DNA of 29,316 bases from a virus. Numbering within the stretch: position 1 is the first letter of the stretch; every line of letters begins with the position of its first letter. The stretch covers positions 1 to 29,316 of IMG/VR virus record IMGVR_UViG_3300035183_001484; one strand, 5' to 3'. Below the pieces are notes generated by a model. The model worked only from the letters and a program-made list of their open reading frames with translations, was not told the DNA's origin and ran no database searches. Shown here in pieces: positions 1,369 through 6,350 of this stretch. A program made the position numbers and the translations under genes.

Positions 1369-1396
1369 ATTATATCTCAATTTTTTAATTTGTCAA
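1369..1396 (-). promoter_or_regulatory. Leftward promoter of the early operon
   Basis: On the minus strand, TTGACA (1391-1396) and TATAAT (1369-1374) are separated by 16 bp, both hexamers perfect. Predicted start of transcription is near 1362. It drives the minus-strand genes 1319-1. It diverges from the rightward promoter at 1475-1503, the usual layout of a phage early control region. Confidence 0.8.
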
Positions 1397-1452: not shown

Positions 1453-1477
1453 CAAGTTTTCAACATTTTGAAACTTG
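1453..1477. promoter_or_regulatory. Possible operator between divergent promoters
   Basis: The arms CAAGTTT (1453-1459) and AAACTTG (1471-1477) form an inverted repeat with an 11-bp spacer. The right arm overlaps the -35 box of the rightward promoter. A repressor site is plausible from position alone. The sequence is AT-rich and the match could be accidental. Confidence 0.3.
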
Positions 1478-1503
1478 ACTTTTGAAAATTTTTGAGATAT
1501 AAT
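1475..1503 (+). promoter_or_regulatory. Rightward promoter of the replication-gene operon
   Basis: TTGACT (1475-1480), 17-bp spacer, TATAAT (1498-1503). Predicted transcription start is about 1510, so the GC-rich segment 1510-1686 would be the 5' leader of the mRNA. It also rules out translation starting at the TTG at 1492, which lies inside the promoter. Confidence 0.75.
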
Positions 1504-3477: not shown

Positions 3478-3741
3478 ATGAAGATGAGGAAGAAAATGAA
3501 AAAGAAGAAAAGAAATGAAACACTTGAAGAACTTTTAGAAGAAAATAGGTTTAGAAAGAAATTTATTAACATTTTAGATTTTAATTTGTTTTTATTGAGG
3601 GAAATATGTTCTTCTATGAAAGTTATAAAAACATTAGAAAAATTAAAGGAAAAATTAGAGAATTATTCAATTGTTAAAACGGCAACTGAAACATTAATGA
3701 TGGAAAAAGATTTGGCAAAAACAAAAAAAATTAATGATTAA
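3478..3741 (+). CDS. Small basic hypothetical protein
   Basis: Very Lys-rich N-terminus (MKMRKKMKKKKRNETLEE) followed by amphipathic helices, 87 aa from the ATG at 3478. The start is unclear: ATGs at 3484 and 3496 and a TTG at 3442 are all in frame. It overlaps the start of the RNase H gene by 8 nt. The lysine run may be partly due to A-rich sequence, but the rest reads like a real helical protein. Function unknown. Confidence 0.45.
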   Translation: MKMRKKMKKKKRNETLEELLEENRFRKKFINILDFNLFLLREICSSMKVIKTLEKLKEKLENYSIVKTATETLMMEKDLAKTKKIND

Positions 3742-4159
3742 TGAAAAAACAATTAAAGTTTGGACAGATGGAGGTTCAAGTGGAAATCCTGGCAAAGGAG
3801 CAGTTGCTTTCATTATAGAATGGGATAATCAAAGAATTTTGTCTGCTATGACATTAAAAGAAGAAGTTACCAGCAATGAGGCTGAATACAAAGCATTATT
3901 AGGAGTTTTGATTTGGCTTTTGCAGTATCCTTATATTGAAATTTATCAATATCATTTAATCGTTTATAGTGATAGTCAATTAGTTGTCAATCAAGTAAGT
4001 GGGCTTTGGAACGTTAATGAAAAAAAGTTTAAAAACTGGTTGGAAAAATTAAGAAGCTTATTGTCTAAATTTCAATCTTGGGAAATTCAATGGATACCAA
4101 GAGAAGAAAATAAAGTTTGTGATGATTTAATAAAGCTTGTGCTCTACAAAAAAACTTAA
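3734..4159 (+). CDS. rnhA: Ribonuclease HI
   Basis: 141 aa, close to the usual length of the single-domain enzyme. It cleaves the RNA strand of RNA-DNA hybrids, for example primers or R-loops. The four acidic catalytic positions are visible: D12 in TDGGSSGNPG, E49 in TSNEAEYKALL, D80 in VYSDSQLVVNQ, and D130 in the C-terminal motif IPREENKVCDDL, in the order typical of RNase H. It overlaps the previous gene by 8 nt and is the last gene of the replication-side cluster before the 538-bp non-coding region. A role in primer removal during phage replication is likely from the family. Confidence 0.9.
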   Translation: MINEKTIKVWTDGGSSGNPGKGAVAFIIEWDNQRILSAMTLKEEVTSNEAEYKALLGVLIWLLQYPYIEIYQYHLIVYSDSQLVVNQVSGLWNVNEKKFKNWLEKLRSLLSKFQSWEIQWIPREENKVCDDLIKLVLYKKT

Positions 4160-4193: not shown

Positions 4194-4240
4194 AACATTT
4201 TTGAAAACATAAAACTTTTTAAACTTTATTTTTTTTCTTT

Positions 4241-4346
4241 TTTTTCAACCCATTAATTCTGGACTCTGAGAATAAACTTATTTGTTTTCGTTTGTTCTGT
4301 GCTGAAAATGTTTATTCCCAGAGCTCAGATTCAACGGGTTGAAAAA
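4241..4346. repeat. 37-nt imperfect inverted repeat
   Basis: Arm 4241-4277 and arm 4310-4346 are complementary at 31 of 37 positions, with a 32-nt loop. Of the six mismatches, four become G-U pairs if the minus strand is transcribed and one if the plus strand is, so a minus-strand RNA hairpin is favoured. On either strand T-rich sequence precedes and A-rich sequence follows the stem, which is wrong for an intrinsic terminator. The inner end of the right arm carries a 12-nt motif (4308-4319) that recurs at 4476-4487. Confidence 0.75.
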
Positions 4347-4388
4347 TATATTCTCAAAATTTAACTTTTATAAACAATTTAAAATGCA

Positions 4389-4535
4389 TCAAGGACTTGA
4401 CAAAAGAGAAAAAGTGAGGTATAATATCTGATAGAGTTTTAGAGTACAACCTCTATAGAGGTAATTGGGGATGGGATGTTTATTCCCGTCGCCCGTCATC
4501 AATTGTAGCGGGTTGGCAGTCAGGTAAAATTTCAT
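4389..4535 (-). CDS. 48-aa small ORF with sequestered ribosome site
   Basis: On the minus strand, an ATG at 4535 opens a 48-aa frame (MKFYLTANPLQLMTGDGNKH at its start, LTFSLLSSP at its end). It has GGAGG (4543-4547) seven bases ahead, the clearest Shine-Dalgarno in the window, and a perfect promoter upstream (4590-4618). Part of the SD and the bases up to the ATG lie in a perfect 10-bp hairpin (4535-4544 with 4558-4567). The peptide has no recognised family and overlaps a candidate plus-strand RNA, so it may be an accident of that structure. Kept at low confidence. Confidence 0.35.
   Translation of the reverse strand: MKFYLTANPLQLMTGDGNKHPIPNYLYRGCTLKLYQILYLTFSLLSSP
4397..4425 (+). promoter_or_regulatory. 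Perfect consensus promoter of a candidate ncRNA
   Basis: TTGACA (4397-4402), exactly 17 bp, TATAAT (4420-4425); predicted start near 4432. No plus-strand gene lies between it and the terminator at 4636-4664, so its product is most simply a non-coding RNA of about 230 nt. Its -35 lies in a 14-bp inverted repeat shared with the opposing promoter. Confidence 0.85.
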
Positions 4536-4589
4536 TTCTATTCCTCCACTACACGTCGGAATAGAAACTACTTCCTGAACTGCAATTGT

Positions 4590-4618
4590 ATTATACACAA
4601 TCAAAATTTAAATGTCAA
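4590..4618 (-). promoter_or_regulatory. Perfect consensus promoter facing the ncRNA promoter
   Basis: On the minus strand, TTGACA (4613-4618), 17-bp spacer, TATAAT (4590-4595); predicted start near 4583. It fires leftward through the whole ncRNA region towards 4397 and beyond. Its transcript would cover the 48-aa ORF, the 37-nt inverted repeat and the weak terminator at about 4152. Facing promoters like this produce mutually antisense RNAs. Confidence 0.8.
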
Positions 4619-4635
4619 GTCTTTGATTGTGGAAA

Positions 4636-4664
4636 AGTCCGTGAATAAAATCACGGGCTTTTTT
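4636..4664 (+). terminator. Intrinsic terminator before terL
   Basis: AGTCCGTGA (4636-4644) and TCACGGGCT (4651-4659) form a 9-bp stem (one G-U) with loop ATAAAA, followed by six Ts (4659-4664). It ends the candidate ncRNA 34 nt before the terL start codon. Confidence 0.85.
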
Positions 4665-4682
4665 ATTTTATAGAAAAAATGT

Positions 4683-4688
4683 TATAAT
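4683..4688 (+). promoter_or_regulatory. Possible terL promoter (-10 only), near-leaderless
   Basis: TATAAT at 4683-4688 with a poor -35 (TTTTTA at 4660-4665, 17-bp spacing). Transcription from it would start near 4695, only about 3 nt ahead of the terL ATG (4698). Since a terminator precedes it, terL needs some promoter here or readthrough. Confidence 0.4.
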
Positions 4689-4697
4689 CAAAATGAA

Positions 4698-6035
4698 ATG
4701 GAGAAAATAAATTTTTTTAAATTAGCAAACTTTACTCCTAAACAGAAACTATTCTTGGAATTCACAAAAAACTATCGCTATACCTTATATGCTGGAGTTT
4801 TGGGTTCTGGCAAGTCATACAGCTTGAGATGGATAATTCTTTATTGGCTTTTATATTGGGGAGCAAAAGGATATAAAGGGGTGCAGGCAGGTTTATTCTG
4901 TAGAACCTATCCAGAATTAAACGACAGGCATCTCAAAAGAATTAAAACAGAATTCCCCGAATGGTTTGGAACTTATTATGAGCAGAAAAGTGAATTCCAT
5001 CTATCACAAGATTATGGTGGAGGAATTTTAATGTTTAGAAACCTTGATGAACCAGAAAAGTATTTCTCATCTGAATGGGCTATTGTCGGAGTAGATGAAA
5101 TCACGCAAATACCAAAAGAGACATTTGACATTTTGCTTCAGAGAAACAGGTGGCCAGACTTGGAAAATCCAAAATTCTTGGCAGTATCAAATCCATTGGG
5201 GGAATTTGCTAATTGGGTAAGAGAATTCTTTGTGGAAAAGACATCAAAGGACGAAAGATGTAAAGAAGCAGGATATTTAAAAGCAGAAATAGGGGACAAT
5301 CCATATTTGCCAGAAAACTATTACGAGGAATTATCAAAGGGAATGGACGAACCAATGAAAAAGGCTTTGCTTCAAGGTAATTGGTATTCTTTAGAGGGAA
5401 TTATAGACGAAAAAGGATATTTGCCATTATTAACATCATCGCAACTTCAAAACTCAATTATAGATGTTGACATTCAAAATTTTCATAAACCAGTTATAGG
5501 AATAGACCCAGCAGCAGGAGGAGATGAAACGGCAATAGTTTTAAGAGATAATTTTGTAGCAAAAATTCTTTTCAATAAAAGACTTACAGACACAATGCAG
5601 ATATTGCCACTCTTGAGCGATTATATTGTAAAATATCAGCCATCGGCAATTGTCGTAGATATCACAGGAATAGGCAAAGGAATTTATGACAGATTAAATG
5701 AAATAGGTTTATATCAAGAACTTCACGGCATACAATTCGGACAAAAATCAAATTATCCCGAAAGATTTTTCAATAAAAAGGCTGAATTATATTGGAAAAT
5801 GAGGGAATGGATACTAACAAGCGGAAAACTCTTGAAAGACGATGCTTGGAATGAGATTTTAACTTTACGATATAAGGAACATTCGGACAGGGTGATAAAA
5901 TTTCAATCAAAGGAAGATTTATTTAAAAAGGGTATAAAATCTCCAAATGTGGCTGATGCTTTGGCTTTGACATTTTCTGTTGACTTATCCACAATGATAG
6001 AACTTGACAAAATGCGGGAATTTATGATAGAATAA
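4698..6035 (+). CDS. terL: Terminase large subunit
   Basis: 445 aa, typical length. It is the ATP-driven motor and nuclease that packages DNA into the prohead through the portal. N-terminal ATPase: Walker A GVLGSGKS (33-40), Walker B AIVGVDE with D133/E134, and a coupling-type motif LAVSNP (161-166). C-terminal RNase H-fold nuclease: D270 in VIGIDPA, D321 in VVDITGIG and D420 in SPNVADALAL, the expected acidic triad. No SD precedes the ATG. It is the first gene after the structured non-coding region and is followed closely by a KH-domain gene. The packaging strategy (headful or other) cannot be read from sequence alone. Confidence 0.95.
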   Translation: MEKINFFKLANFTPKQKLFLEFTKNYRYTLYAGVLGSGKSYSLRWIILYWLLYWGAKGYKGVQAGLFCRTYPELNDRHLKRIKTEFPEWFGTYYEQKSEFHLSQDYGGGILMFRNLDEPEKYFSSEWAIVGVDEITQIPKETFDILLQRNRWPDLENPKFLAVSNPLGEFANWVREFFVEKTSKDERCKEAGYLKAEIGDNPYLPENYYEELSKGMDEPMKKALLQGNWYSLEGIIDEKGYLPLLTSSQLQNSIIDVDIQNFHKPVIGIDPAAGGDETAIVLRDNFVAKILFNKRLTDTMQILPLLSDYIVKYQPSAIVVDITGIGKGIYDRLNEIGLYQELHGIQFGQKSNYPERFFNKKAELYWKMREWILTSGKLLKDDAWNEILTLRYKEHSDRVIKFQSKEDLFKKGIKSPNVADALALTFSVDLSTMIELDKMREFMIE

Positions 6036-6050
6036 GGCTGAAAACCATTT

Positions 6051-6350
6051 ATGGAGAGTGAGAAACTTGATTTAATAAAAAATGAAATCTTGCAACTTCT
6101 GAAACAGATTTACAAAGAGGAACTCATACTAAAAGAAGCCAAGATTGATTTAAGGGGTATAAATCTGATTTTTGATTGTCAGACAAAAGAAGCAAAGGCA
6201 AAGATATTAGGTAAACAGGGAAAACATATTAAATTGGTGAGGAGAATTGTTAAACTTTTTGGTTTTATGAACTACAAAGCGAATATTAACATTTTCCTTG
6301 TTCCAGATGTTGAAAGACTTCAGCAATCTGCTGGTGGCAAAAATAAATAA
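6051..6350 (+). CDS. KH-domain RNA-binding protein
   Basis: 99 aa. Residues about 32-85 form a KH-like fold with the loop signature ILGKQGKHIKLVRRIVKLFG; GKQG at 54-57 is the GxxG loop that contacts single-stranded nucleic acid, and its flanks resemble bacterial KhpA and NusA-type KH domains. An N-terminal helix (1-30) precedes it. The gene begins 16 nt after terL; a TTGACA-18-TAGAAT pair at 6004-6033 could be a weak local promoter. A phage-encoded KH protein between terminase and portal is unusual. RNA binding is a family-based expectation; the partner RNA is unknown, and the structured RNA just upstream of terL is one candidate. Confidence 0.7.
   Translation: MESEKLDLIKNEILQLLKQIYKEELILKEAKIDLRGINLIFDCQTKEAKAKILGKQGKHIKLVRRIVKLFGFMNYKANINIFLVPDVERLQQSAGGKNK

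Follow-up and report, generated by a model that had tools for sequence, protein, structure and literature searches.

Plasmids provide examples of sense and antisense RNAs that overlap or converge and fold into several stem-loops, among them RNAIII of pIP501 and pT181 and RNA I and RNA II of ColE1. In the pIP501 and pT181 leaders, a terminator precedes the gene that is controlled. Few phage ncRNAs are known outside model systems. The put RNA of phage HK022, located downstream of a phage promoter in early operons, comprises about 70 nt and two stem-loops (PMC9378689). In staphylococcal phages, the structured cabRNA lies within the terS/terL coding sequence (PMC10686824). RNA-based origins in mycobacteriophage prophages adjoin parABS and involve an ncRNA that is transcribed against the neighbouring gene and found in some relatives only (PMC7157519). 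The pRNA of the tailed phage phi29 is an ncRNA of 174 nt; the phi29 terminase has presumably lost nuclease activity, whose place pRNA may have taken (PMC11476376).

The Locus and Its Distribution among Relatives

The DNA analysed here, referred to as the window, is the stretch of 29,316 nt that covers positions 1 to 29,316 of virus record IMGVR_UViG_3300035183_001484. It contains a non-coding block, flanked by an RNase H gene (rnhA, 3734-4159) and by terL (4698-6035), in which an accessory segment spans 4238-4693. The window as a whole has four perfect TTGACA-N16-18-TATAAT sites where a first-order Markov model predicts 0.025, and two of the four are the pair flanking the candidate RNA described below. 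Elsewhere, divergent consensus promoters (1369-1396, minus strand; 1475-1503, plus strand) separate leftward small genes from a rightward replication gene, an arrangement also present in L004, L007, L010 and L012.

A TerL search identified 19 viral loci, to which its profile version added no records. In L018 (4870-7182), and also in L017, an in-frame intein-like insert ending in VTHN/S interrupts TerL at the Walker A motif; in L019, TerL carries an insert close to residue 122. Only L004 and L005, which are near-identical contigs, carry the block, with 76% identity to the window, and there it is placed directly between a terS-like gene (DUF5681) and terL. Pattern-based and TerL-based scans of viral_contigs gave no further homologue of the block, the RNA pattern scan and TerL scan of genome_contigs gave neither a block homologue nor a TerL relative, and blastn against phages, plasmids and E. 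coli genomes added none. Across all homologue searches, the matches outside L004 and L005 were chance ones (L021, L022, L024-L038, L068, L069). Likewise, searches with covariance models built for the core and for hairpin M1 (both described below) found nothing beyond the known carriers among related records.

The block is absent from the terS-terL interval in nine lineages whose TerL is 70-92% identical and which possess the same terS-like gene (L002/L003, L007, L008, L009/L010, L012, L013, L014/L015, L016 and L017/L018), absence being scored in that interval and some records being fragmentary. The distance from the terS-like gene to terL is mostly 7-49 nt in these lineages and reaches 149 nt in L014/L015; in L007, a different ORF occupies the interval. 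By eye, an HNH-endonuclease-like ORF in L002 and L003 and a methyltransferase-like ORF in L012 also adjoin the terS-like gene upstream of terL, which gives the junction the appearance of an insertion hot spot. L006 shows an apparent deletion scar, in which the left edge of the block, TTTTTTTACAACCC, is fused to the T-rich tail of the terminator and the terL -10 box, although an assembly artefact at the hairpin is possible. Since the left neighbour differs among carriers (rnhA, the terS-like gene or another ORF), the block is a cassette whose right edge stays fixed at terL, and one that is accessory and not essential. Such natural presence and absence among close relatives makes its function testable by comparing phages with and without the RNA.

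A Predicted Structured RNA with Its Own Promoter and Terminator

The plus promoter, TTGACA-17-TATAAT, occupies 4397-4425 on the plus strand and reads TTGACA-17-TACAAT in L004. A plus RNA of about 233 nt (4432-4664) is predicted, with its start placed from this promoter and its end from an intrinsic terminator. Segment 4432-4668 has a folding energy of -80.1 kcal/mol (z -7.45), and none of 200 shuffles was equally good. High-probability helices are predicted at 4447-4458/4503-4515, 4470-4476/4484-4490, 4516-4524/4574-4583, 4535-4544/4558-4567 (a perfect 10-bp stem), 4596-4605/4622-4631 and 4632-4644/4651-4663 (the terminator). The 5' domain (4447-4515) consists of a closing CAACC/GGUUG helix around hairpin P2, and its helices are seen both in the window (0.81) and in L004 (closing helix 0.51, P2 0.98). 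In the predicted hairpin that follows at 4516-4583, GCAGUCAGG pairs with CCUGAACUGC, and the 10-bp stem UUUCUAUUCC/GGAAUAGAAA forms the cap. Hairpin P6 (4596-4631) overlaps the minus promoter and in L004 extends to 14 bp, lengthened together with its partner strand. The terminator (4632-4672), GUCCGUGA/UCACGGGC followed by the T-rich tail, pairs with a probability of about 1, and L004 carries a compensatory change from C-G to U-A in it.

Conservation is concentrated in a core at 4501-4583, where 1 of 83 nucleotides is changed relative to L004, against 82 of 370 (22%) in the remaining cassette (Fisher 4e-7); in the TerL DNA of the same pair, 30.6% of third codon positions differ. In each of the two promoters flanking the RNA, 1 of 12 hexamer positions and 6 of 17 spacer positions are changed. 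The alignment and covariation analysis proposed along with the original prediction is thin, as the L004/L005 copy is the only homologue found. Against column-shuffled controls that rest on two sequences (window and L004) and thus on two independent copies of the element, alifold gives z -7.0 (plus RNA) and -10.2 (entire block), and seven compensatory double changes stand beside two broken pairs. Compensatory changes and preserved helices are seen on both strands. Hairpins P1-P2 at the 5' end gain no support from the column alignment (z -0.7) because they shift in length and register; folding each sequence separately recovers the closing CAACC/GGUUG helix as well as P2.

All plus-strand ORFs within the candidate RNA have 20 codons or fewer and none is conserved, while the longest in L004 (34 codons) has no conserved counterpart in the window. 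The whole window, searched with gathering cut-offs, matches no Rfam family. Permissive matches all fall below the cut-off, among them long-hairpin miRNA models on the palindrome at 4241-4346, with scores far below it. The fold z, the shape kept at 76% identity, the retained promoters and terminator, and the lack of an Rfam match support a structured RNA, and the plus strand probably encodes an undescribed structured phage ncRNA with sharply defined predicted ends. The original prediction had described such an RNA, with a perfect promoter, consecutive stems, an intrinsic terminator, no plus-strand ORF and no recognizable class, and these elements all stand; it had overlooked the minus promoter, hairpin M1 and the absence from most relatives.

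A Convergent Promoter and Hairpin M1

A second promoter, TTGACA-17-TATAAT (12/12), lies on the minus strand at 4590-4618. Reading from 4618 to 4590, it points at the plus promoter, and it is retained in L004 as TTGACT-17-TATAAT. As a conserved minus promoter faces the plus promoter, overlapping sense and antisense RNAs are expected. The putative minus RNA (4241-4583), delineated from the promoter and the strand bias of M1, would be antisense to the core and run into M1; no minus-strand terminator was found for it.

M1 (4241-4346, minus strand) belongs to the same block and is a long hairpin of 105 nt and about 35 bp, a palindrome with 42-nt arms and an A-rich loop on the minus strand. Its energy is lower on the minus than on the plus strand in both the window (-45.8 vs -37.5 kcal/mol) and L004 (-50.3 vs -47.8 kcal/mol), as is its alifold z (-14.6 vs -9.7). 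This bias, which depends on a handful of G-U/A-C positions, arises because several A-C mismatches of the plus strand become G-U pairs on the minus strand. For P6 and the terminator, in contrast, the plus strand gives the better pairing (z -7.1 vs -5.1), and together these opposite biases form the pattern expected of two convergent transcripts, although few positions underlie it. By sequence inspection, M1 also has CAACC...ATGTTTATTCC...CGGGTTG in common with the plus RNA's 5' domain, which suggests that the two may descend from one duplicated unit.

Proposed Explanation and Alternatives

The explanation that we favour, at a confidence somewhat short of even, is an accessory, moron-like phage ncRNA cassette between the terS-like gene and terL, with a predicted cis-antisense partner. 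It is favoured because the hexamers of two perfect convergent promoters are kept while their spacers drift. The conserved shape with compensatory changes, the constrained core and the opposite strand preferences of M1 and of P6 with the terminator favour the same explanation, as do the nine lineages without the block and the terL -10 box retained in the L006 scar. Counting against it are the thin covariation from two independent copies, the failure to find a minus-strand terminator and the small number of positions behind the M1 bias. The cassette would encode a discrete structured ncRNA of about 233 nt with its own promoter and terminator, opposed by an antisense transcript fired from an equally strong minus promoter. 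The plus RNA would be the active product, and its nearly invariant 83-nt core may bind a partner, be it a protein or a second RNA. The minus RNA, being the full complement of the 5' domain and core, would pair with the plus RNA; alternatively, minus transcription would interfere by collision, and either way the level of plus RNA would be set. The cassette terminator would leave terL unsilenced, as terL would be re-supplied from its own extended -10 box. What we infer about expression, a binding partner and the acting strand builds on the promoters, terminator, folds, constraint and presence/absence pattern, which are read from the DNA itself. A bolder version, namely an RNA-only phage moron, a transferable, protein-free cassette whose RNA and antisense switch late genes or target a host function, is rather unlikely.

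The block could also act in cis on terL, given its adjacency. As a late-operon leader, it would halt plus transcription at 4664 until antitermination, by a protein or by a folded RNA of the HK022 put kind, or until release from antisense attenuation lets it reach terL. Such a leader would account for the order of promoter, structured leader, intrinsic terminator and structural operon, and for an antisense promoter lying inside it, a feature of plasmid rep leaders under antisense attenuation. However, terL has a predicted promoter element of its own downstream of the terminator, the extended -10 box TGTTATAAT (4680-4688, plus strand), 9 nt before its ATG, which is retained in L004 and in the leaderless L006 scar. 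No anti-terminator is common to both homologues; a search for exact complements gave a 6-nt one in the window and none in L004. Additional promoters lie downstream near 6004 and 9510, and nine relatives retain terL without the leader. The terminator and the separate -10 box, with no conserved anti-terminator, argue for a stand-alone RNA over a terL leader, and we regard the latter as unlikely. As separate observations, terL may be leaderless, and consensus-like promoters at the terL 3' end (window 6004-6033; L007 5414; L008 2852; L010 4800; L013 3144) suggest separate promoters for structural operons in several relatives.

Convergent overlapping RNAs and a long palindrome are also what an RNA- or hairpin-based replication or copy-control element would offer, whether modelled on ColE1 RNA I/II, on the mycobacteriophage origins that do not use RepA, or on a hairpin site acting at the DNA level. 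An RNase H gene adjoins the block in the window, and RNA-based phage origins have a precedent (PMC7157519). On the other hand, the L004 block has no adjacent RNase H gene, the block is optional, and the plus RNA ends in a strong terminator with no extension as a primer. Moreover, an initiator gene of the window (phrog_270 match) carries iteron-like repeats at 2138-2206, which makes a replication role less likely, and we consider it improbable. These direct and inverted repeats, of the ATGACAyAgATGTCA type, constitute a candidate origin inside the initiator-like gene.

It is equally doubtful that the block is a non-functional remnant of an unidentified mobile element. Its variable left junctions, its accessory pattern and the L006 scar would fit such an origin, but a core with a single change in 83 positions and the maintenance of promoters and helices speak against loss of function. 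A retron ncRNA was also considered and rejected: no reverse transcriptase was found among the subset of window ORFs scanned, and an RVT_3 match is RNase H.

Even less probable is a pair resembling type I toxin-antitoxin systems, in which the minus RNA would be the mRNA of a small protein (MKF[Y/S]LTANPLQL...), with the plus RNA as antisense to that mRNA. The predicted RNAs are convergent and overlapping, and a minus-strand ATG is preceded by GGAGG at a distance of 7 nt; yet the peptides (28 aa vs 48 aa) diverge fully after about 12 codons, and comparison of the minus-strand ORFs of the window and L004 gave no conserved small hydrophobic toxin. As the frame is not conserved and other genes of the phage have little or no Shine-Dalgarno sequence, a minus-strand small protein was rejected, which in turn favours the ncRNA cassette. 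Among gene starts at 1492-28309 of the window, most lack a Shine-Dalgarno sequence and have A-rich upstream bases, a hint that the host does not rely on such sequences.

The proposed analogy with phi29 packaging RNA, acting with TerL and portal, rests on position beside terL and is extremely unlikely, because TerL D270, D321 and D420, which we take to be the nuclease motif residues, are invariant in the TerL alignment, the phage possesses a terS-like gene and a separate -10 box precedes terL; the RNA is moreover missing from nine lineages with a closely related TerL, where a packaging RNA should occur in every phage with that motor and beside an ATPase without a functional nuclease domain, and the candidate has no Rfam pRNA match. 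The packaging reading is thus removed by the same analysis that describes the cassette. The suggested link to a KH protein is not supported either, since L002, L003 and L007 have the putative KH gene but lack the RNA, and structure prediction did not confirm the fold (low confidence, pLDDT 59). This small GKQGKH protein, encoded after terL (6051-6350), is KH-like by eye with no confident model, and a PDB match to a NusA homologue reaches only E 0.42.

Comparison with Known Systems

The block RNA resembles phi29 pRNA in being non-coding and of similar size; unlike in phi29, the nuclease aspartates of TerL are retained, and the RNA is missing from close relatives. Unlike the ColE1-type RNA origin, in which a long primer leads to an RNase H-processed origin, the plus RNA is strongly terminated. 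With antisense-controlled plasmid leaders, the block shares an opposing antisense promoter in the leader (4618 to 4590, kept in L004) and predicted overlapping RNAs that form several stem-loops, and with those of pIP501 and pT181 also a terminator ahead of the next gene. It has no downstream rep gene, the search for exact complements gave no conserved anti-terminator, and the downstream terL has its own -10 box.

As in HK022 put, stem-loops lie downstream of a phage promoter; in contrast to put, the block RNA is without any Rfam match, and override of its terminator is not known. Like cabRNA, it would be a structured RNA from the terS-terL region, whereas cabRNA is not known to have a promoter, terminator or antisense promoter of its own (PMC10686824). 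Finally, the block shares with the mycobacteriophage RNA-based origins an ncRNA that would be transcribed against a neighbouring gene and that is present in only some relatives; those origins adjoin parABS, whereas the window has a replication initiator gene elsewhere.
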